Shown piece by piece: positions 1,081-21,642 of a DNA stretch of 22,651 nucleotides. The DNA lies in the IMG/VR virus record IMGVR_UViG_3300020578_003089, positions 1 to 22,651 of that record. One strand, 5' to 3'. This DNA comes from a virus. Both the position numbers and the translations under genes were made by a program. The notes beneath the pieces are model-generated. The model did not search any database and had not been told where the DNA came from. It saw only the letters and a program-made list of their open reading frames with translations. Each line of letters opens with the position of its first letter. The first letter of the stretch is position 1.

Positions 1081-1264
1081 CGTGGCCACAGCTGCGACTC
1101 GGCTGGCTCTGGGGTCTGAGCCGTTCCCCCAGCTCGGGGATCTGGTGAAGGCGATCCAGCGGGAGTTGGTGAAGCGGGCGGCGGTGCCGAATGTTGATCC
1201 AGAGAAGATCGGGGCGGGACTGGTGTCCAAGGTGATGCAGGCCATGCGGATTGGGGGTGAGTGA
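866..1264 (+). CDS. Small replication-associated protein, possibly helicase loader-like
   Basis: This encodes a 132-residue protein. The ATG at 866 has a good ribosome binding site (AGGAG at 851-855). The first 35 residues are polar and low in structure. From about residue 40 the protein is helical, with the pattern FTAEQLLTWVTVLNCFPP, then VATAATRLALGSEPFPQLGDLVKAI. Proteins with this W...L..FPP...v..A......FP...dL arrangement are frequent next to phage initiators, where helicase loaders or inhibitors of the G39P type sit. Position and pattern suggest a loader, without a decisive motif. It overlaps the initiator gene by 215 bases in the +1 frame, which is long. It joins the next gene by a TGATG overlap (1262-1266). 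Codon use is clearly coding from about position 960 on. Confidence 0.6.
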   Translation: MDWDRADERGSTTRVPQNGVSRTTPRPSQQSSEPARQVGQALRLLCNAKRIEFTAEQLLTWVTVLNCFPPSDVATAATRLALGSEPFPQLGDLVKAIQRELVKRAAVPNVDPEKIGAGLVSKVMQAMRIGGE

Positions 1265-1674
1265 TGAGCGAGCTGTGTTTTGAATGTGGCGACCCAGCAG
1301 ACCATGAGCACCATGTGGTGCCACGGTCAAGAGGCGGCACAAAGACCGTCCCTTTGTGCGAGCCGTGTCACGGAAAGGTCCACAGTCGAAGAATGAGCAC
1401 GAAGCAGCTAACGCGTGACGCGCTGCAGCAACGCAAGCAAAGCGGCCAGCGAACCGGGACAGTACCCTTTGGGTGGTTTTTGAGCCATAACGGAAAAACC
1501 CTGATTGAAAATACAGGACAGCAATTCTGGCTGCGAGAAATGCGGCAAATGCGAGCAAACGGAGAAACACTGCAGGCGATTGCGGAGCGATTGCAGGCGG
1601 CAGGGGTTAAGACAGCAAAGGGTCACGATAAGTGGCGAGCCACGGTTATTAAGAGACTGTGTGAAAGCGGCTGA
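1264..1674 (+). CDS. HNH nuclease-like protein with a serine-recombinase-type C-terminal domain
   Basis: This encodes a 136-residue protein. The N-terminal 40 residues form a zinc-binding HNH-type motif: CFEC (Cys5, Cys8), HEHHVVPRSRGG (His16, His17), CEPCHGKVH (Cys32, Cys35, His36, His40). The family normally nicks or cuts DNA. Residues about 62-136 (PFGWFLSHNGKTL, LQAIAERLQAAGV, then KWRATVIKRL) match the helical DNA-binding 'Recombinase' region of large serine recombinases. The catalytic resolvase domain is absent. So it looks like an HNH head on a recombinase-type DNA-binding tail. I used ATG 1264, overlapping the previous stop, with GGGGGTG just upstream, rather than the GTG at 1261. The canonical HNH asparagine is not obvious, so activity is uncertain. 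It could be a homing-type nuclease or a replication or packaging nuclease. Confidence 0.65.
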   Translation: MSELCFECGDPADHEHHVVPRSRGGTKTVPLCEPCHGKVHSRRMSTKQLTRDALQQRKQSGQRTGTVPFGWFLSHNGKTLIENTGQQFWLREMRQMRANGETLQAIAERLQAAGVKTAKGHDKWRATVIKRLCESG

Positions 1675-2071: not shown

Positions 2072-2458
2072 ATGTCGAGCAAGATTGAAAAGGCTTCCGA
2101 GGCAATTGCCAAGCGGCTAGAGACTCCCGAAAGGGGGTTTGTCGAATGGGTCGTTTTGCTAATGCCCGTTCTGCAGCAGCTGTTGTCGTGCCTATTTGAG
2201 AACGATGACGTTGGTCCAGCAGAAGTACAGTCGCGAGTGCGGCAGCTAAACGCGCGGAATCCAGCACGCCTTTTGCGCCGAACGAAGATGAACATGCGCA
2301 AACAGGCTCGCCGAGATGGTCAAAGAATGAGCGACGCTCAAGCCGAAGAAGCGGCGCAAGCTGCCATCGATGAATGCCTAAACGCAGATCAAGAGGACGT
2401 GGCAGCAGCTGGCCGTGAGGCTCAGGCCAGCGACTTTGACGGAGAGGATTTCAGCTGA
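2072..2458 (+). CDS. Unknown small helical protein
   Basis: This encodes a 128-residue protein of unrecognised family. ATG 2072 is preceded by AAAGGAG with ideal spacing, so the start is secure. Residues about 23-43 (FVEWVVLLMPVLQQLLSCLF) form one strongly hydrophobic stretch that may be a membrane-associated helix or a buried core helix. The middle is basic (LLRRTKMNMRKQARRDGQR), and the C-terminal 40 residues are Ala/Glu/Asp-rich and acidic. It is the first gene of an operon whose members overlap by one to four bases, and it is linked by TGATG to the secreted protein that follows. A small regulator, DNA-binding packaging factor or membrane-associated accessory protein are all possible. Confidence 0.7.
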   Translation: MSSKIEKASEAIAKRLETPERGFVEWVVLLMPVLQQLLSCLFENDDVGPAEVQSRVRQLNARNPARLLRRTKMNMRKQARRDGQRMSDAQAEEAAQAAIDECLNADQEDVAAAGREAQASDFDGEDFS

Positions 2459-3270
2459 TGCTGCTCTCGCTGCTGCTTTGCATTGCGGTTGATGAGCCGG
2501 CTTTGGTGTTTCCTGTCCAGCCAGTGCCGGCTATTGCGTCAGAGCCACCAGCCCCGAAAACGATCGACTCGATCGGGGCGGATGAACTCATGGTTGTCGC
2601 TGTGCCCTCACGGATCGCTCTAATCTCAGTGCCGGACGGGGCTGTCGAGATTGTCGAGGTGGAGCAGCCGAGCGGGACTAGCACGACGATCCGCGGCAAG
2701 TTTGCAGGCGGCGGCGGCAAAATAGAGCGGCGGCGATTTGATCATCCGTGGCTGTACGAAATCACGCCAAAAAAAACAGGGACCGTCGAGCTGATCGCTA
2801 TTCCGATCGGACTCACAGATCCCCAGCAAATCCAACGGCAAAGGTTAGAGCTGAGCGTGGGGCCAGCTCCGCCTTTGCCGTTGGTCCCGGTTCCTCCTGA
2901 GCCGGTTCCTCCCGAGCCGGTTCCGCCGGGGCCAAAGCCTTCTGAATTCCGAGTCTTGTTGCTGACGGATCAGTCGGATTCGGCTACAGCTCAGGCGGCG
3001 GCCGCGGCGGTTCCGGTAGTGCAGTGGCTTGACGCAAATTGCGTGCAGTCCAACAGTAGGGCTGAGTGGCGACGGTACGACAGGACATTGATGGAGACCG
3101 ACGCGGACGACGCTCCGCCAGTCTTTGCGAAGCTCTGGAAAGAAATCCGACCAAAGCTGCCGGACGGCCCTCAAGCGGTGGTGGCGTGTGGCTCTGAGGT
3201 TACGATCGTGGAAATTAAAGACGCGGAGCAGCTGCTCGACGCGCTGAAAACATTAAAGGGACAGCCATGA
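2458..3270 (+). CDS. Secreted proline-rich protein, unknown function
   Basis: This encodes a 270-residue protein with a short hydrophobic N-terminus (MLLSLLLCIAVDEPALVF) that looks like a signal sequence without a typical lipobox. Residues about 25-140 form a beta-rich domain with a Gly-rich turn (FAGGGGKIERRRFDHPWLYEI, ending TGTVELIAIPIG). Residues 144-161 are a PVPPE repeat linker. A C-terminal alpha/beta domain follows (FRVLLLTDQSD, WLDANC, AEWRRYD, KLWKEIRPKLP, AVVACGSEVTIVE), with a thioredoxin-like or small alpha/beta rhythm but no CxxC. In my recollection, two-domain secreted proteins with a Pro linker and this C-terminal pattern occur in Planctomycetes and their phages; this is not tested here. 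It overlaps its neighbours by one base upstream and by ATGA downstream, so it is co-translated with the DUF1353 and peptidase genes. Confidence 0.75.
   Translation: MLLSLLLCIAVDEPALVFPVQPVPAIASEPPAPKTIDSIGADELMVVAVPSRIALISVPDGAVEIVEVEQPSGTSTTIRGKFAGGGGKIERRRFDHPWLYEITPKKTGTVELIAIPIGLTDPQQIQRQRLELSVGPAPPLPLVPVPPEPVPPEPVPPGPKPSEFRVLLLTDQSDSATAQAAAAAVPVVQWLDANCVQSNSRAEWRRYDRTLMETDADDAPPVFAKLWKEIRPKLPDGPQAVVACGSEVTIVEIKDAEQLLDALKTLKGQP
2887..2931 (+). repeat. Three 15-base units encoding the PVPPE linker
   Basis: Three in-frame 15-base units (2887, 2902, 2917) encode PVPPE, PVPPE, PVPPG. They form an extended linker between the two domains of the secreted protein. Units differ at third codon positions, so the array is not a very recent expansion. 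Confidence 0.8.
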
Positions 3271-3662
3271 AAGACGGAAGCCGGCAGGTAAAATCGCAAG
3301 ATTCACTTCCGGTGTGTTTAGACGGAGATCGTCTCACCTTCCTGTCTGATGCTTGCATTGGCCACCAGATTGCAGGCGTGCCAATAGTTTTCACGGCTCC
3401 CGAGGGCTACAGCTGGGACGGAGCTTCAATTCCGCAATGGGCGTGGTCAGTCATTGGCCATCCATTAGAGGGCGATCTTCGGTTTGCGTCGTTGTTTCAC
3501 GATTGGCTGTGTGAGCATTCCGAGACGGCAGGCGATCGAATGTTTGCAGATGCGGTCTTTTTTAAGCTGCTAGAGGAAGCTGGCCTTTCCCGGTGGCGGC
3601 GCATGTGTCTTTGGGGTGCCGTAAGAGTTTACGCAGTGGTCATCTGGAGGCGGCGAAAGTGA
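3267..3662 (+). CDS. DUF1353 family phage protein
   Basis: This encodes a 131-residue protein matching the DUF1353 family. After a basic, polar N-terminus comes the conserved GYSWDGASIPQWAW segment (about residues 47-60), then a small-residue loop IGHPLEGDLRFASLFHDWLCEH that carries the conserved His-Asp, and RMFADAVFFKLLEEAG with the AD..F motif. The basic C-terminus (VRVYAVVIWRRRK) is typical in length and charge. The family is common in tailed phages, often near lysis or tail genes, and its biochemical role is unknown. ATG 3267 overlaps the previous stop (ATGA), and its own stop overlaps the GTG of the peptidase gene. Confidence 0.8.
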   Translation: MKDGSRQVKSQDSLPVCLDGDRLTFLSDACIGHQIAGVPIVFTAPEGYSWDGASIPQWAWSVIGHPLEGDLRFASLFHDWLCEHSETAGDRMFADAVFFKLLEEAGLSRWRRMCLWGAVRVYAVVIWRRRK

Positions 3663-4417
3663 TTATCGACGACGACACGACAATAGAGACAGATGAACGC
3701 TGCGGACTAGATTTAAGCTTGCGGCCTAACCAAGGGGGCTACGCCTATGCTGGTTACGCTGAGCCATTTCCGCGAGCTTTGCGGGTGCTGACAAAGGACG
3801 AAATAATTGACATGGCAAAGGAGGCGGAGAAATTCAAAACGCGGCCCTTGGATTCGATGCGATATTATCAGTGGCCAGTGAAGAATCAACAGCGCACAAA
3901 TTACTGCTGGGCGTATGCAACTGTGTACGCTTTGGAACTGGCAATGCTGCGGCAAAACCAGAAGATTCCGCGGCTGTCCGCGGCTAGCGTGGCGGCCCCG
4001 ATTAAGAACTTTCGCAACCAAGGCGGCTGGGGCCAAGACGCGCTCAAGTATCTTGCTGCAAAGGGCTGTGTTCCTGAAGACTTTTGGCCAAACGCTTCGA
4101 TCGATCGCAGACATGACTCAGAAGCGAACAGGCTGCGAGCCTTAAACTACCGGTGCCGCGAATGGATCGAAATCACACCGAGGAACAAGCTGCAGGCGGC
4201 AACGATTGTCCTTATGGGCTACGCAATCTCAGCCGGGTTTAACTGGTGGGGCCATCAAATCACGATCGTCGGAGTCTCGATTCGTAACGGTGAAATCGGT
4301 TGGCACATTGCGAACAGCTGGGGACCGGACTGGGGCGAGAACGGCCTTGGCGAGCTGCACGGGACGAAGGCACTCTTTGACGATGCGGTCTGCTGTTCTG
4401 CTGGGAGCCTATCATAA
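3659..4417 (+). CDS. Papain-like (C1 family) cysteine peptidase
   Basis: This encodes a 252-residue protein with the papain catalytic set. Gln77 and Cys83 lie in KNQQRTNYCWAYAT, with the same six-residue spacing as papain Gln19/Cys25. His199 is in WWGHQITIVGV, and Asn219 is in IANSWGPDWGENGLGEL. The order Q-C-H-N and the NSWG..WG motif are diagnostic of C1 peptidases, which cleave peptide bonds. The first about 65 residues resemble a short propeptide or linker. No signal peptide is seen. I chose GTG 3659 because it overlaps the previous stop (GTGA) and has GGAGG at 3646-3650; a longer in-frame start at 3593 would lie inside the DUF1353 gene. It is followed by a thioredoxin, which might keep the active Cys reduced. 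Target could be host envelope, host proteins or phage proteins. C1 enzymes are uncommon in phages. Confidence 0.85.
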   Translation: MIIDDDTTIETDERCGLDLSLRPNQGGYAYAGYAEPFPRALRVLTKDEIIDMAKEAEKFKTRPLDSMRYYQWPVKNQQRTNYCWAYATVYALELAMLRQNQKIPRLSAASVAAPIKNFRNQGGWGQDALKYLAAKGCVPEDFWPNASIDRRHDSEANRLRALNYRCREWIEITPRNKLQAATIVLMGYAISAGFNWWGHQITIVGVSIRNGEIGWHIANSWGPDWGENGLGELHGTKALFDDAVCCSAGSLS

Positions 4418-4905
4418 TGATCCGGACGCTTGTAGTGCTTATGGCGGCGGCCATGCTTGCCGATGACTTGTGGAAGTTCAAGGTGATCGAAATCCGCAAG
4501 GCGGCGAAGCCACAGCAAGAGCAGGGGACGCCAATCAAAACGACAGAGCAGCCAGAGCCAGCAGCAGCAGCCGAGCCGGAGTCGGAGTTTTATCTTGTGA
4601 TGTTTACAGCGAGCTGGTGTGGTCCTTGCCAGAAGTACAAGTCCACGACGCTCCCGGCGATAAAAGATTTTGTAAGCGTGACGGAGACCGACATGGACAC
4701 AAGTCCGGAGTATTGGCGAGCCCGAGTGGTCCGCGGCCCGGACGGGCGAAACCAGACGCTGCCAGGCGTGCAATCCATCCCAAGCTTTTGGCTGTGTCGG
4801 AAGTCTGATCGCTGGCCGGTGGCTCGCTGGACCGGTCCGCTCGCTCCAGCAACGCTGAAGGCGGAGATCGCGCGGCGGGCGGCGGCCCCGGCTCCGAGGG
4901 GCTGA
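4417..4905 (+). CDS. Membrane-targeted or secreted thioredoxin-like protein
   Basis: This encodes a 162-residue protein. Residues 1-15 are hydrophobic (MIRTLVVLMAAAMLA) and probably a signal sequence or membrane anchor. A Lys/Gln/Pro/Ala-rich linker covers about 27-56. The thioredoxin fold starts at FYLVMFTASWCGPC with the redox pair Cys68/Cys71. VQSIPSFWL supplies the cis-proline Pro122, and the C-terminal helix ends in an Ala/Pro tail. Such proteins reduce or exchange disulfides outside the cytoplasm. An insertion around residues 96-117 (YWRARVVRGPDGRNQ) is longer than in classic thioredoxin. The ATG overlaps the peptidase stop (TAATG), implying coupled translation with a cysteine peptidase, a meaningful pairing of enzyme and reductant. 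A phage role is inferred. Confidence 0.85.
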   Translation: MIRTLVVLMAAAMLADDLWKFKVIEIRKAAKPQQEQGTPIKTTEQPEPAAAAEPESEFYLVMFTASWCGPCQKYKSTTLPAIKDFVSVTETDMDTSPEYWRARVVRGPDGRNQTLPGVQSIPSFWLCRKSDRWPVARWTGPLAPATLKAEIARRAAAPAPRG

Positions 4906-4911
4906 GCGGCG

Positions 4912-6222
4912 ATGGTTGAACCATACCACCAGGACGAACGGGTCACACTGTACCACGGCGACTGCCTGCAGGTGCTGGCGGATCTGCCGGCGGATTCAGT
5001 GGACGCTGTTGTCACTGACCCGCCGTATGGTCTGGCGTTCATGGGCAAGCGGTGGGACTACGATGTCCCGAGCGTTGAGATCTGGCAGCAGGTGCTGCGA
5101 GTCCTAAAACCCGGAGGTCATTTGCTGGCGTTTGCGGGCACGCGGACACAGCATCGCATGGCGGTGCGGATCGAGGATGCGGGGTTTGAAATCCGGGATT
5201 TGATTATGTGGGTTTACGGCAGTGGGTTTCCAAAAAGTTTGGACGTCAGCAAGGCGATTGATAAGCGCGGCGGCAACGTTGCGGCGTTCACCGAGTTTCG
5301 CGATGCGGTCAAGGCAGCGATGCAGCGCAACGGGATGAGCCGCCAGCAGTTGCAGGATGCGCTTGGAAACTTTATGCTGTCGCACTACCTGACGGCGGGA
5401 AGCCAACCAGCCGTGCCGGTGTTGCGCGATTACCGCATCATCCGAGACACGGTTGGCCTTGGACACCAGTTCGACGAGCTGTTCAACGACGAAGCCGAGC
5501 GGGAGGTGGTGGGGCAGCGGGTCGGAGTGGATACCACAAAGCAGCGAATAGCATGCGCGACGTCAGCGCAAGGGTTAGACAAATCCGTTAGTCACACGTT
5601 TGACATTACAGCCCCCGCAACCGAAGCCGCGAAGCAGTGGGCGGGCTGGGGCACTGCTCTCAAGCCGGCGGTGGAACCGGTCACAATGGCACGCAAACCA
5701 CTGGCCGGCACCGTGGCGGAAAACGTGCTGCAGTACGGCACCGGCGGCATCAACGTGGATGGGTGCAGGGTGGGGACGGAAGTGGTCGGATGGTCCGGCG
5801 GTGCTGCTGGTGGGAACACATGGGACGCAACCAACTGCGGACTGAGCAAGCCGGGGGAGGCAAGGCCCGTTACAGGCCGATGGCCCGCAAACGTCATCCA
5901 CGACGGCAGCGAGGAAGTGGTGCGGCTGTTTCCGGAGACGGACGCGGATGGAGGCTCCGCAGCCCGTTTCTTTTACACGGCCAAAGCCGACGCCAGCGAA
6001 CGCCGAGGCAGCAAACACCCGACAGTCAAGCCGCTGGATCTGATGCGGTATCTGGTCCGATTGGTTTGTCCGGTGGGTGGTGTTGTGCTTGATCCATTCA
6101 GCGGATCTGGAACAACGATCGAAGCGGCACGGGATGAACATTGCCGGAGCATTGGCATTGAGATGAACGCGGAGTATCTGGCGGACACGTTGGAGCGACT
6201 CAAGCAGGGCGTTTTGTTTTGA
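4912..6222 (+). CDS. Site-specific DNA methyltransferase (N6_N4_Mtase family), orphan
   Basis: This encodes a 436-residue protein that transfers a methyl group from S-adenosylmethionine to an exocyclic amine in DNA. The catalytic motif IV DPPY (36-39) precedes the SAM-binding motif DPFSGSGTT (394-402), the order of beta-class enzymes. DPPY is most common in adenine-N6 enzymes, but N4-cytosine cannot be excluded. Between them lies a phage-type central region (AKQWAGWGTALKPAVEP, VLQYGTGGINVDGCRV). An extra block at about residues 120-215 contains an HTH-like stretch (GMSRQQLQDALG), probably part of target recognition. No partner restriction enzyme is next to it. It lies six bases after the thioredoxin and ten bases before the terminase. 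The probable role is protection of phage DNA or marking for packaging or expression. Confidence 0.9.
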   Translation: MVEPYHQDERVTLYHGDCLQVLADLPADSVDAVVTDPPYGLAFMGKRWDYDVPSVEIWQQVLRVLKPGGHLLAFAGTRTQHRMAVRIEDAGFEIRDLIMWVYGSGFPKSLDVSKAIDKRGGNVAAFTEFRDAVKAAMQRNGMSRQQLQDALGNFMLSHYLTAGSQPAVPVLRDYRIIRDTVGLGHQFDELFNDEAEREVVGQRVGVDTTKQRIACATSAQGLDKSVSHTFDITAPATEAAKQWAGWGTALKPAVEPVTMARKPLAGTVAENVLQYGTGGINVDGCRVGTEVVGWSGGAAGGNTWDATNCGLSKPGEARPVTGRWPANVIHDGSEEVVRLFPETDADGGSAARFFYTAKADASERRGSKHPTVKPLDLMRYLVRLVCPVGGVVLDPFSGSGTTIEAARDEHCRSIGIEMNAEYLADTLERLKQGVLF

Positions 6223-6232
6223 GGCTTGCAAA

Positions 6233-8326
6233 GTGATTACCGTGACAAAGCAAGGCAAGACCAAGCTGGACGCCGCGGAGCGTTACGCCAAAACGAAGGC
6301 GGCCATGGCGGCCCGCTCCCGCGAAGCCTCGGCCAGCGGTCGCGACATCGGCGAGCTTCCTGCAGTGGTCGAGCCCGAGCTGCGGCAGCAGTGCGAAGCG
6401 AGCCTCCGGCAGTTCTTGGAGATCTGCTTCCCGATGGCCTTCAGGCTCGGCTGGTGTGAGGATCACTTGGTCCTGATCGCAGAGCTTCAGCGGGTAATCC
6501 TCAGCGGTGGCTTCCGCGCAATCGGGATGCCACGCGGGACCGGGAAGTCTACGATCGTCATGCGGGCGATGATCTGGGCGATCTGCATCCGCAAACACCC
6601 CTTCAGCATGATCGCGGCGGCCAACGCCGGCAAGGCGGAGAAGCTGCTCCGAGACATCGTGACCGAGGTCTCCCACAATCAGACGCTAATGGATCTCTGG
6701 CCAGAAGTCTGCTACCCATTTAGACGACTGGAGGGCGTGGCCAATAGAGCCAAGGGCCAGCTATTCCGAGGGGCCAACACAAACATACAAGCCAGCACAA
6801 AGACGGTGGTTTTTGCTACGCTTGACGGCTTCCCCGGGACCGGGGCCATCGTCTCTGCAGCTGGTCTGATGGAGGCTGTCCGCGGGGCTTTGCATACGCT
6901 TCCGGACGGGCGAGTGATCCGGCCCTCGATGCTGCTTTGCGACGACTTCCAGACAAGGGAGTCGGCCATGAGTCCGCTTCAGTGCCACTCAAGGACCGAA
7001 GTGATCCAGAACGATCTGGTCGGGATGGCTGGCCCGGACTCGCCATTTTGCGCACTGGTGACGTGTACTGTGATTCGGGCGGACGACGCGGCGGATCGGC
7101 TTCTGAATCCCGAGCTGCATCCGGACTGGTGTGGAATCCGCCGGCAGTTTGTGCGGCAAATGCCGAATGATGACGCAATGAAGCTTTGGGCACAGTACGC
7201 CGACATTAGAGCGCAGTCCCTCCGGCAGCATGGCGACATTCGGGACGCCTCGGGATTTTACTCCCGCCACAAGGCCGAAATGGACGCCGGCTCTGAGGTG
7301 GCGTGGCCGGCTCGGTTCGCTGCGGATCGCGGTGAAATCTCAGCCCTCCAGCACGCGATGGAGTGGTATTACCGAAGCCGGAGTGGATTCTTTAGCGAGC
7401 TGCAAAACGAGCCTCAAAAGGACGACAACGAGGCTCGGACGTGGCTTACGTCTCAGGACATTGCGGAGACTCGCCGGATCAGGCTTCCGCGTGGCGTGGC
7501 TCCCGCCGGATTTCATCGACTGGTGGCGATGGTGGACGTCCAGCAGACGCTGCTCTATTACACGGTCGCGGCGGCAAAGGAGGACGGTAGTCTTCACGTC
7601 ATGCGGTACGGGACTTTTCCGGAGCAGGATGAGCCCTACTTCGCGCTTCGCGAAGCTCGCCGGAAGATCGTCTCGCGGTATCCCGGAGCCGGTGAGCTGG
7701 CGGCCCTATCCTTGGCCATCACGGACTTCGCGGACTGGCTCTTCACAACCAGCTGGCGGACGGAAACCGGAGATCATCTGACGCCGGAGCTAGTGGCTTA
7801 CGATGCTAGGTGGAAAACGGATTTGGTCAAGCAGGCTCTGGCCCGGAGCCCTCACGCGAAGTTGCTGATCGGATATCTGGGCCAGAGCTTCCGAGCGGCG
7901 GACAAGCCAATCCAAGAACGGAAATATGATCCGGGCTCACGGGTCGGCCTTGGCTGGGTTCTGCAACGCCGGAAGGCGGCGGCGGACGTTCGGACAATTC
8001 TCAGCGACGTGAATTTTTGGAAGACCAGTTTGGCGGATCAGATGGCGATCAGAATCGGCCATCCCGGAGCGGTGACGCTGTATGACGGACTTCACAGGAT
8101 GTACTCGGAACACTTGGTCAGCGAGTACGCAACGCAGACCGAGGGCAGAGGTCGCACGGTCATGGAATGGAAGCTCCGGGTCGGCCAAGAGAATCACTGG
8201 CTGGACTCGACGGTAGGCTGTCTGGTGTTGGCCAGTGTCCTCGGGTGTAACATTCCCGAGGTGGCCGAGGCTGGCGAGAAGCGGCGGAAGAAGAAACCAC
8301 GACGAAAAACGGAGGTCAGAACGTGA
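6233..8326 (+). CDS. Terminase large subunit, GpA-like
   Basis: This encodes a 697-residue packaging motor that translocates DNA into the prohead and cuts it. The ATPase domain shows Walker A GMPRGTGKST (Lys105) and a Walker B-like segment MLLCDDFQ with Asp237/Asp238. The nuclease half contains the MVDVQ motif (Asp435), typical of GpA-family terminases, followed by acidic positions such as ITDFADW and YDARWKTDLV. The basic C-terminus (KRRKKKPRRK) could bind the portal or DNA. The start is GTG 6233 with GAGG at 6221-6224; the gene overlaps the next by GTGA. The length is a little above the lambda gpA size of about 640. No small subunit is recognisable next to it. Confidence 0.88.
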   Translation: MITVTKQGKTKLDAAERYAKTKAAMAARSREASASGRDIGELPAVVEPELRQQCEASLRQFLEICFPMAFRLGWCEDHLVLIAELQRVILSGGFRAIGMPRGTGKSTIVMRAMIWAICIRKHPFSMIAAANAGKAEKLLRDIVTEVSHNQTLMDLWPEVCYPFRRLEGVANRAKGQLFRGANTNIQASTKTVVFATLDGFPGTGAIVSAAGLMEAVRGALHTLPDGRVIRPSMLLCDDFQTRESAMSPLQCHSRTEVIQNDLVGMAGPDSPFCALVTCTVIRADDAADRLLNPELHPDWCGIRRQFVRQMPNDDAMKLWAQYADIRAQSLRQHGDIRDASGFYSRHKAEMDAGSEVAWPARFAADRGEISALQHAMEWYYRSRSGFFSELQNEPQKDDNEARTWLTSQDIAETRRIRLPRGVAPAGFHRLVAMVDVQQTLLYYTVAAAKEDGSLHVMRYGTFPEQDEPYFALREARRKIVSRYPGAGELAALSLAITDFADWLFTTSWRTETGDHLTPELVAYDARWKTDLVKQALARSPHAKLLIGYLGQSFRAADKPIQERKYDPGSRVGLGWVLQRRKAAADVRTILSDVNFWKTSLADQMAIRIGHPGAVTLYDGLHRMYSEHLVSEYATQTEGRGRTVMEWKLRVGQENHWLDSTVGCLVLASVLGCNIPEVAEAGEKRRKKKPRRKTEVRT

Positions 8327-8568
8327 AGGCAGGCAGACCAAGGGGCTCATCCAGTTTTGAGCGCGATCTTGTAGACGCTCCCGTCAGCCGGTGCGCTCGC
8401 TGCGGATCGACGGAGCGGCTTGACTATCGCAACGTCGAAACAATCCACGGCGAAGGGCGAGATCCGCAGGGTCGGCCTTATACGGCGGTCGAGCTGCGGC
8501 CTACTAAGTGTATCAGTTGCGGGCAGTCGCGAATCGATCGGACGTGGATTTACTGCCCGGTGAAATAG
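8323..8568 (+). CDS. Small zinc-ribbon protein
   Basis: This encodes an 81-residue protein with two CxxC knuckles, CARC (Cys24, Cys27) and CISC (Cys63, Cys66), about 35 residues apart, which is the pattern of a four-cysteine zinc ribbon. The N-terminus is short and basic with Gly/Ser. The GTG start overlaps the terminase stop (GTGA). Such mini-ribbons in phages are DNA- or RNA-binding accessory proteins or translational regulators. The position between terminase and gpW-like joiner suggests a role in packaging or head assembly, but no family is recognised. Its TAG stop lies within an inverted repeat (8563-8581). Confidence 0.7.
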   Translation: MKAGRPRGSSSFERDLVDAPVSRCARCGSTERLDYRNVETIHGEGRDPQGRPYTAVELRPTKCISCGQSRIDRTWIYCPVK

Positions 8569-8581
8569 GGATTCCCTATTT
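8563..8581. repeat. Inverted repeat with a near-identical copy at 21006-21024
   Basis: AAATAGGG-ATT-CCCTATTT forms an 8-bp perfect stem with a three-base loop, overlapping the end of the zinc-ribbon gene and followed by a TAATATCTAG stretch without a T run. The same 19 bases, with one change (T to G), recur at 21006-21024 just after another gene. Confidence 0.6.
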
Positions 8582-8622
8582 AATATCTAGACGACTGCGC
8601 CGGAAGCTCGCACACTCCCGGC

Positions 8623-8823
8623 ATGACTACCGAAACAACGACGCAAAAGATCGCACGCCTCCGCGAGCTGCTAGAGTCAGGAGTAACATCCGACAGCAGA
8701 GACGGGGCCAGCACGTCCTTTGATCTGGAGTCTGTTCGCCGCGAACTGCTGCGGCTGGAGCAGGAAGCCGGGACACGCCGGCAGCGGCCTCGGGTGTTGA
8801 ATATGCAAATGGGGAGACGCTGA
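8623..8823 (+). CDS. Head-tail joining protein, gpW-like
   Basis: This encodes a 66-residue protein that fits lambda gpW, which fills the portal exit and connects head to tail. Similar features are the length (lambda has 68), an N-terminal helix (IARLRELLESGV), a Ser/Asp-Gly turn (SDSRDGASTSFD), a second helix (LESVRRELLRLEQEAG) and a basic, disordered tail (RRQRPRVLNMQMGRR). It lies between terminase and portal exactly as W lies between A and B in lambda. The ATG lacks an obvious Shine-Dalgarno sequence; a GCCGG/CCGGC inverted repeat ends at the start codon. Confidence 0.75.
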   Translation: MTTETTTQKIARLRELLESGVTSDSRDGASTSFDLESVRRELLRLEQEAGTRRQRPRVLNMQMGRR

Positions 8824-8826
8824 GCC

Positions 8827-10221
8827 ATGGCGCAGACGCTCCCGCAGACATCCGACTCCACCTATCAAGCCCTGAATCCCGGCAACCGCCGGCGATCCGC
8901 GAGCCAGCGGATCAGGCTGGAGGACAGACTCCTCACAGATCGACGCCGCGAGGCTCTCGCAGCCAACGCTCTCGACGTCCATCGCAATATGGGGCTGCTC
9001 GGCTGGGCGATTCGCCGGACGCTGGACTACTGCTGTTTGTGGGACTTTCAGCCACGCACGGGCGACAAAGGGCTGGACGCCGCGCTTAAGTCTCTAATGG
9101 CTCGCGACTGTGAGCCCGAGCGGGTAGATGTGTTTGGCCGGATGGACTGGGACGACTTTCGCCGCGTGGCGGAGGCTCAGAAGCTACTGACGGGCGACTG
9201 CTTTTTTATCAAGCAGAACGACTGGACACTTCAGCTGGTCGAGGGGGCGTGGTGTCAAAATCCAACGGACGCCCGGACTGACGCCGGCCAGTGGCTGAAC
9301 GGGGCCAAGCTGCGGAACGGGCGGATAGTCGCTTGGGCTTTCAACGAGGAAGATCCTCTTACGGGTGTTCGGTCAGCCCGGACGGTTCGGCAGTCGCAGG
9401 TTTGGCAGCACTGCCAATTCGAAGCCCGGCCCAATCAGATTCGGCCCCAGTCCCCAATCGTTGCGGCTCTGAATGAGTTTCGGGACGTCGATGAGACTTT
9501 CGATCACATGCGGGCAAAGGTCAAGCTCGATCAGTTGTTTGGCATCGCCTTTTCACGCAAGGACGATGCTGAGGCATTCGATCAGGACTCCGACGCCGAA
9601 GGCTCACAGGATCAGGCGGCTCGCGTGGTTGACTTTGGCCAAGGGCCGGCTGTGTTTGATCTCGATCAGGGCGAATCTGTCGAAGCAATCCAAAGCGGCA
9701 ATCCCGCGACGAACACACAGGATTTCCTCAAGCTCTGCATTCAGGTTGCGCTTAAAGTCCTTGATCTGCCGACGACTTTTTTCTTTGAGGATTACACGAA
9801 TTTCTTCGGATCGCGGGCCAGCTGGCTTTTGTTTGAGCGAGCTTGTCACGCTCGCCGGAAAACACAGGAGCGGCTTCATAAGCGATTCACCAGTTGGAAG
9901 CTGCTTCAGTGGACGCTGCCGGTCGAGTTCGGCGGGACGGGCGAGCTGGTTCTGCCAGCAGGCCAACTGATCACCGATCTCAAGTGGCGATGGGTGCCGC
10001 GTGGCGTGGCGTGGTGGAGACCGCAGGAAGAGCTGGACGTCGCGCTGCGGTCAGTCGCGGCTGGGCTTCAGTCCATGCAGGACATCTGCGACGAACGCGG
10101 CCTCGGGGATTACCTTGAGAACGTGGCTGAGATTATGAGGGAAAAGGAAGAGCTGGCGGCCATGGGCTTCCAGCAGGTTACAAACGCCGGAGCGATGATC
10201 CGGCTGGAGGGTCAGCAGTGA
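8827..10221 (+). CDS. Portal protein, lambda family
   Basis: This encodes a 464-residue portal subunit that forms the ring at the special vertex through which DNA enters and leaves. It shows the lambda-type portal pattern: an N-terminal basic segment (RRRSASQRIRLEDR), early helices (NALDVHRNMGLLGWAIRRTLDY), a mid-region with QIRPQSPIVAALNEFRDV (clip/stem helices), and a conserved late helix FFGSRASWLLFERACHARRK. The GTGA overlap with the protease gene follows the lambda B-C order. The length is slightly below lambda gpB (533), mostly at the C-terminus. It starts three bases after the gpW-like stop. Confidence 0.88.
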   Translation: MAQTLPQTSDSTYQALNPGNRRRSASQRIRLEDRLLTDRRREALAANALDVHRNMGLLGWAIRRTLDYCCLWDFQPRTGDKGLDAALKSLMARDCEPERVDVFGRMDWDDFRRVAEAQKLLTGDCFFIKQNDWTLQLVEGAWCQNPTDARTDAGQWLNGAKLRNGRIVAWAFNEEDPLTGVRSARTVRQSQVWQHCQFEARPNQIRPQSPIVAALNEFRDVDETFDHMRAKVKLDQLFGIAFSRKDDAEAFDQDSDAEGSQDQAARVVDFGQGPAVFDLDQGESVEAIQSGNPATNTQDFLKLCIQVALKVLDLPTTFFFEDYTNFFGSRASWLLFERACHARRKTQERLHKRFTSWKLLQWTLPVEFGGTGELVLPAGQLITDLKWRWVPRGVAWWRPQEELDVALRSVAAGLQSMQDICDERGLGDYLENVAEIMREKEELAAMGFQQVTNAGAMIRLEGQQ

Positions 10222-21097: not shown

Positions 21098-21331
21098 ATG
21101 GCAGAGACTCCGGAAACGCCCCCGCCGGTGGAATCCGGAGACGACAAGCAACAACCGAAAAGCGAGGTTCTGAAAATCTCGCTGCCCGGTGTCACAATCA
21201 GAATTACAGACGCCACGCTCCGGACTATTTTTGAGTTCACGGGGCAGGCGTGGAAGTGGGTGGTCTACGCCTTGGCGGCGGCCATATTTGTTTACAGTCT
21301 CGGATACACTTGGCAGGCGTTCCAAACATGA
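21098..21331 (+). CDS. Small single-pass membrane protein (possible holin)
   Basis: This encodes a 77-residue protein. Residues 1-23 are charged and proline-rich, followed by a beta-like stretch (VLKISLPGVTIRITDATL) and one transmembrane helix at about 52-72 (WKWVVYALAAAIFVYSLGYTW). Size and topology are compatible with a holin or pinholin, or with a spanin or other small membrane protein. No sequence family is recognised. I chose ATG 21098 since the longer in-frame start at 21059 has a poor context. The stop overlaps the next ATG (ATGA), so both membrane proteins are produced together. Confidence 0.65.
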   Translation: MAETPETPPPVESGDDKQQPKSEVLKISLPGVTIRITDATLRTIFEFTGQAWKWVVYALAAAIFVYSLGYTWQAFQT

Positions 21332-21642
21332 TACCAGCATCCGATTTGACTCAGGAATTTTGGCGGGCAGCGGCAATCGCTTGGGGTTGTTTTGTCATTG
21401 GAGTGTATTGCTTTCGCGTTGCTATGGCAGATCCTCAGCGCGTTGGACAGCTGGTTGGAGTGGTGTTGAGCCGACTTCTGATTTTTTGCGGAATGATTGT
21501 GCTGACGGGGTTTGGTAGTCATGCAGTACAGGAATACAAACTTTTAGCCATTAGTCAGGTGGCCAATAGCGACGTTTCTTTAAATGCCGACGAAACACTT
21601 GTGGCACAGGTAACAGATGCAAGCAAAGGTGGCCATCGGTGA
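21328..21642 (+). CDS. Small two-helix membrane protein (possible holin partner)
   Basis: This encodes a 104-residue protein with two predicted transmembrane helices at about 12-29 (WRAAAIAWGCFVIGVYCF) and 42-62 (LVGVVLSRLLIFCGMIVLTGF), then a soluble tail of about 40 residues rich in Ser/Asp/Ala. The two-helix, about 100-residue form fits class II holins. Pairing with the upstream membrane protein through an ATGA overlap is suggestive of a holin/antiholin or spanin-type pair, although no muralytic enzyme is adjacent. The function is inferred. Confidence 0.65.
   Translation: MIPASDLTQEFWRAAAIAWGCFVIGVYCFRVAMADPQRVGQLVGVVLSRLLIFCGMIVLTGFGSHAVQEYKLLAISQVANSDVSLNADETLVAQVTDASKGGHR

Follow-up and report, generated by a model that had tools for sequence, protein, structure and literature searches.

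A phage gene block encoding a papain-family peptidase and a thioredoxin: a possible lysis cassette of planctomycete phages

The gene block and its products

The virus record IMGVR_UViG_3300020578_003089 (positions 1-22,651; this 22.65-kb stretch is hereafter called the window) carries a run of overlapping genes that encode a putatively exported two-domain protein (the partner), a DUF1353 protein, a C1 (papain family) cysteine peptidase, and a thioredoxin. We examined this cassette as a possible lysis module that would act by reducing and digesting a protein wall. A preliminary description had placed four genes here with overlaps of 1-4 bases, and measurement of the junctions bears this out: the partner and DUF1353 genes share 4 bases, the DUF1353 and peptidase genes 4, and the peptidase and thioredoxin genes 1. 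An upstream open reading frame that shares 1 base with the partner gene is a fifth member of the run, and it accompanies the cassette more often than DUF1353 does. Relatives retain the same gene order, with protein identities of 55-69%, indicating that the reading frames are real genes (Table 1).

The peptidase matches PF00112 (Peptidase_C1) with 53 bits (8.7e-14; cut-off 20.7 bits). Its AF2 model has a pLDDT of 93, and the closest solved structure is xylellain (3ois, Z 22.6), followed by the pro-forms of cathepsin and papain. The full Gln-Cys-His-Asn set noted previously holds up across 43 homologues, in which Q77, C83, and H199 are invariant and N219 is present in at least 90%. By profile, modeled fold, and catalytic residues the protein is a C1 member, and proteolysis is its predicted activity. 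No signal peptide is visible in its close homologues. Enzymes of family C1 hydrolyze peptide bonds that join L-amino acids. Such bonds are largely missing from the stem peptides of peptidoglycan, and a protein is therefore a likelier substrate.

The thioredoxin matches PF00085 with 29.5 bits (cut-off 23.5), and its CGPC motif is invariant in six homologues. Its N-terminus is short and hydrophobic, as judged by eye, and the homologue in locus L004 has a clear VHA/D-type site, which suggests that the protein is exported.

The partner consists of a hydrophobic N-terminus, a beta-sandwich, a proline-rich linker, and a thioredoxin fold that lacks CxxC (AF2 model, pLDDT 87), and the protein as a whole has no family match. 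The thioredoxin-fold domain aligns with thioredoxins in VIA (Z 7.7, 89 residues) and, in the alignment, is retained by the shortest homologues. The beta-sandwich matches EhICP2, chagasin, and amebosin in both Foldseek and VIA with Z up to 7.0; the chagasin-like match (Z 7.0, 79 residues) lies in the range of common folds. The PF09394 profile matched none of 39 records at E up to 5, and a profile search found no solved I42 structure. We therefore rejected identity with I42 inhibitors by sequence and kept the fold resemblance alone, although the occurrence of a chagasin-like predicted fold beside a C1 peptidase gene is suggestive.

The DUF1353 protein matches PF07087 with 68.2 bits (cut-off 22.5), and H78, D79, D90, and D95 are invariant in 8 phage homologues. 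A member of this family, TtaP, has measured phospholipase A2 activity (PMC11525133), and the window protein is a predicted phospholipase A2. The product of the small gene upstream has a single hydrophobic segment close to the N-terminus, where hydropathy is highest at residue 23, and no Pfam or PHROG name.

Table 1. Features of the window (strand as given) and of three planctomycete prophages
Feature	Position	Strand	Remark
Conserved small gene, weak holin candidate	2072..2458	+	Overlaps next gene by 1 base
Exported or membrane-tethered two-domain partner ("secreted protein")	2458..3270	+	Constant peptidase neighbor
Beta-sandwich domain of partner, residues 34-133	2557..2856	+	Foldseek/VIA fold likeness
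Thioredoxin-fold domain of partner without CxxC, residues 158-270	2929..3267	+	VIA, alignment
DUF1353, predicted phospholipase A2, optional member	3267..3662	+	PF07087
C1 (papain) cysteine peptidase, GTG start, without signal peptide	3659..4417	+	PF00112
Peptidase catalytic residues	Q77 3887-3889, C83 3905-3907, H199 4253-4255, N219 4313-4315	+	Alignments
Thioredoxin, signal-peptide-like N-terminus	4417..4905; CGPC 4618-4629	+	PF00085
DNA methylase	4912-6222		Begins 6 bases past thioredoxin
Small protein with C-terminal membrane segment, holin candidate	21098..21331	+	Far from cassette in window
Small membrane protein, holin candidate	21328..21642	+	Overlaps 21098-21331 gene by 4 bases
Planctomycete prophages with other cysteine peptidases before terminase	L146:5674-7646, L149:7357-9113, L142:4303-6374		

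The DNA methylase gene is mobile: it stands between thioredoxin and terminase in the window, follows the terminase in L026, L027, and L029, and is absent in others. Elsewhere in the window (1261-1674) a small protein combines an HNH endonuclease motif with a segment of a serine recombinase.

Conservation of the block and recurrence of the pairing

We gathered 31 relatives through the terminase and 51 viral loci through the peptidase alignment, and counted neighbors by profile searches across these loci and four genome contigs, which together hold 54 peptidase loci. The counts are of loci rather than species, loci that share a contig were only partly merged, and genes outside the window were called by a simple program based on codon usage. 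The secreted partner lies immediately upstream of the peptidase in 46/54 loci and is separated from it by DUF1353 in three more (L013, L014, and L056); most of the loci that remain are truncated where a contig stops. A thioredoxin family follows the peptidase in about 31 of the 54 loci, and the family of the small upstream gene was found in 23. DUF1353 occurs in only 7/54: it takes the position between partner and peptidase in the window and three relatives, precedes the block in L019, G001, and L075, and in G004 (31.5 kb) is located toward the other end of the contig. The core is thus the pair of secreted partner and peptidase, with thioredoxin a frequent member and DUF1353 an optional one. 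The genes do overlap in the window, but the proposed four-gene operon was rejected as a conserved unit, since among these loci DUF1353 has that position only in the window and the three relatives.

In the window's lineage the large terminase gene comes shortly after the block. In G001 (42 kb) the genes for DUF1353, the small upstream protein, the partner, the peptidase, and the thioredoxin stand in a row, and the terminase, portal, and capsid are all unrelated to those of the window, indicating that the cassette travels. Among isolated phages in INPHARED there was one weak peptidase match and no match to the partner, and terminase matches reached only about 24%.

Several loci have additional features. 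The pair of partner and peptidase occurs twice in tandem in L083 (6317-8688), where the first peptidase copy is divergent. The gene for an exported SNase-like protein (L041:5379-5810, a weak match) overlaps DUF1353 upstream of the cassette in G001. L091 encodes, several genes ahead of its C1 peptidase, a protein (8265-8843) that is papain-like or NlpC-like by eye, has no Pfam match, and looks akin to the peptidases of L146 and L149.

Exported redox and protease domains recur beside the peptidase in other combinations. Downstream of it, L090, the G238 prophage, and apparently L097 encode an exported trypsin-like protease fused to a thioredoxin domain, and L054 and L093 encode an exported trypsin-like protease. 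In L024/L105 and in the chromosomal prophage L142, another cysteine peptidase is followed by an exported CxxC protein, upstream of the terminase. L146 and L149 have a third cysteine peptidase, labeled NlpC/YiiX-like by eye with Pfam silent; after it come two exported products, a trypsin-like protein that contains a CGPC segment and a CxxC protein. The CxxC segments of L024, L105, L142, L146, L149, and L097 are called thioredoxin by motif, without a Pfam match. The 348-residue protein of the L024 type also has no Pfam match. Its profile comparison with papain-like peptidases was weak at first (12%); with three sequences it rose to 65% (E 6e-5), with Cys/His/SWG colinear, and the protein is probably papain-like.

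Because different proteases and thioredoxin-like proteins keep the same pairing, reduction and proteolysis appear to act together outside the cytoplasm. This recurrent pairing, the convergent ARRANGEMENTS, is the strongest argument that the two predicted activities are joined there. The link between peptidase and thioredoxin drawn in the preliminary description is thus supported. The role given to it there, that thioredoxin maintains the peptidase cysteine in reduced form, is only one of those conceivable. Since exported thioredoxin domains are also found fused to trypsin-like serine proteases, a role in reducing the disulfides of the wall fits at least equally well.

Host phylum and envelope

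The peptidase is present on Planctomycetota contigs L052 and L053, from metagenome-assembled genomes (MAGs). Another three Planctomycetota genomes carry it on large contigs in a prophage context: G238, a 3.0-Mb contig with phage portal and capsid, and G249 and G371, in both of which a terminase lies downstream. Relatives of the window's terminase occur in 46/372 Planctomycetota genomes, many of them full length at 33-41% identity. Beyond the seed genomes, the peptidase profile found 3/391 Planctomycetota and 0/387 Pseudomonadota genomes, a small difference in the expected direction. The peptidase also occurs in one gammaproteobacterial (L054) and one Burkholderiaceae (L055) MAG, possibly through misbinning. 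L055:1-3213 holds the end of the peptidase gene, a thioredoxin, and a small membrane protein beside genes that look like host housekeeping genes, one of which looks by eye like methionyl-tRNA formyltransferase; this arrangement could stem from integration or from misassembly.

Planctomycete envelopes are described as resistant to SDS (sodium dodecyl sulfate) and built of protein that is rich in proline and cysteine and stabilized by disulfides (PMC3035269, PMC2754498), and cysteine-rich YTV wall proteins have been described in the phylum (PMC8567305). Several genes for peptidoglycan and division are dispensable in Planctopirus (PMC10632474). The earlier suggestion of a host with a protein-rich wall is thus supported by the Planctomycetota prophages, by the terminase relatives, and by the wall literature (PMC3035269).

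A possible role in lysis and comparison with known systems

Phage lysis is commonly understood as the work of a holin and a peptidoglycan hydrolase, and a host phylum whose protein wall may be disulfide bonded should need another route. No description of lysis by planctomycete phages was found in the literature searched. As had been noted for the window, no ordinary muralytic endolysin was found: Pfam gave no muralytic family in the window, G004, G001, or the G238 prophage among the matches listed (the best 25 families in these multi-protein scans; for G004 against PHROG, 25 of 44). The cassette proteins themselves matched no known peptidoglycan-hydrolase domain in Pfam or PHROG. Holin-like genes accompany several copies of the cassette. 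A Pam3-gp28 holin lies just upstream of it in L067, and a like protein is found in L069; homologues of the window's 21098-21331 gene directly follow the thioredoxin in L075 (1.2e-16) and L055, and a homologue of the 21328-21642 gene adjoins the cassette in L075 and G004.

These observations, together with the retained catalytic residues, favor the earlier idea of an envelope-lysis module, and we consider the chances about even that the block is a planctomycete-phage lysis cassette that acts by reductive proteolysis. Under this model, the C1 peptidase, having no export signal, would accumulate in the cytoplasm until a holin (candidates are encoded at 21098-21642 or 2072-2458) opened the inner membrane at a set time and freed it, the way holins release endolysins. 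Thioredoxin, exported beforehand across the inner membrane, would reduce the disulfides of cystine-rich wall proteins, and might also keep the peptidase cysteine reduced, and the freed peptidase would then digest the protein wall. The two-domain partner would probably bind the peptidase as a regulator, anchor, or inhibitor. DUF1353, where present, may hydrolyze phospholipids and so help the membranes to open. More tentatively, and with somewhat less confidence than even, we suggest that phages of Planctomycetota replaced endolysins with a peptidoglycan-independent lysis that combines thioredoxin with cysteine or serine proteases and arose on several occasions, with differing proteases and thioredoxins.

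Several points weigh against lysis by reductive proteolysis. The evidence is purely computational, consisting of gene content, order, conservation, predicted folds, and the host phylum of relatives, and it is from such relatives that we infer Planctomycetota as the host of the window phage itself. The relatives scanned for lysins are possibly incomplete, and most phage proteins match no family. No canonical holin was identified beside the cassette in the window, where there are candidates only. Short homologues of the partner lack the inhibitor-like beta-sandwich, and the terminase relatives L133-L141 in planctomycete chromosomes have no such genes before the terminase, which also counts against generality. 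Peptidoglycan is, moreover, present in planctomycetes (PMC4432595; discussed in PMC10632474).

This last point is also the starting point of a different explanation, in which an endolysin that escaped recognition elsewhere cuts the peptidoglycan (PMC4432595) and the cassette performs a spanin-like last step on the protein layer and outer membrane. A lysin could have been missed, since the majority of proteins in these phages have no family match; DUF1353 and thioredoxin would suit a later envelope step, and in phage FNU1 a DUF1353 gene lies close to an amidase gene (PMC6591296). Four genomes or genome parts gave no muralytic family among the matches listed, however, and the peptidase resembles holin-released lysins in lacking the signal peptide that one would expect a periplasmic helper to carry. 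We regard such an accessory role as unlikely. The missing signal peptide also fits a cytoplasmic protease for host takeover or processing of phage proteins, controlled by the tethered partner that so constantly adjoins it, with the thioredoxin as an unrelated neighbor. Yet the recurrent neighbors (thioredoxins, trypsin-like proteases, and trypsin-thioredoxin fusions) are exported, an exported reductant would be pointless for an enzyme of the reducing cytoplasm, and head maturation has its own S49 protease, so that this alternative seems rather improbable to us. The possibility we hold least probable by far is a virion-borne entry enzyme or superinfection-exclusion factor that acts on the host envelope. 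Envelope-directed proteins are used in this way by other phages, and DUF1353 matches a PHROG labeled tail assembly chaperone, but no other cassette member has a virion match, and the cassette is not part of the structural gene region and moves independently of it; the host-entry role first considered for the block found no support.

If lysis by reductive proteolysis is correct, the cassette reveals a load-bearing part of the planctomycete envelope and provides enzymes able to open planctomycete cells, the phages themselves supply the means to test whether the wall is peptidoglycan or protein, and functions can be assigned to several phage gene families that now have no annotation.

The proposed system can be compared with known ones. 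The peptidase shares with family C1 (papain and xylellain) the fold, the Gln-Cys-His-Asn set, and a similarity that spans pro-enzyme forms; it differs in that the classical cysteine preceding the active site (CGSC) is replaced (NYC), in having no signal peptide, and in its fixed phage partner gene. That partner resembles chagasin-type inhibitors (I42) in its predicted beta-sandwich of similar arrangement and in the position of its gene beside a C1 peptidase gene, but there is no sequence match, a thioredoxin-like domain is fused to the sandwich, and short homologues dispense with the sandwich. The DUF1353 protein has the family match and conserved His-Asp pair of TtaP-type phospholipase A2 (PF07087). 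It differs in its setting within a phage gene block and in the spacing from His to the later Asp, which is 12 or 17 residues compared with 15 in TtaP; the counterpart of TtaP D85 could be D90 or D95. Like the holin-endolysin(-spanin) cassettes of double-stranded DNA phages, the block groups small genes near the packaging genes, its lytic enzyme would carry no signal peptide, and holin-like membrane proteins stand beside several copies; in place of a muralytic enzyme, of which none was found, it encodes a C1 protease, a thioredoxin predicted to be exported, a two-domain partner, and an optional predicted phospholipase. Keratin breakdown reportedly combines a disulfide reductase with a protease, and the logic proposed here, in which disulfides would be reduced and a resistant protein layer then digested, is alike by analogy only.

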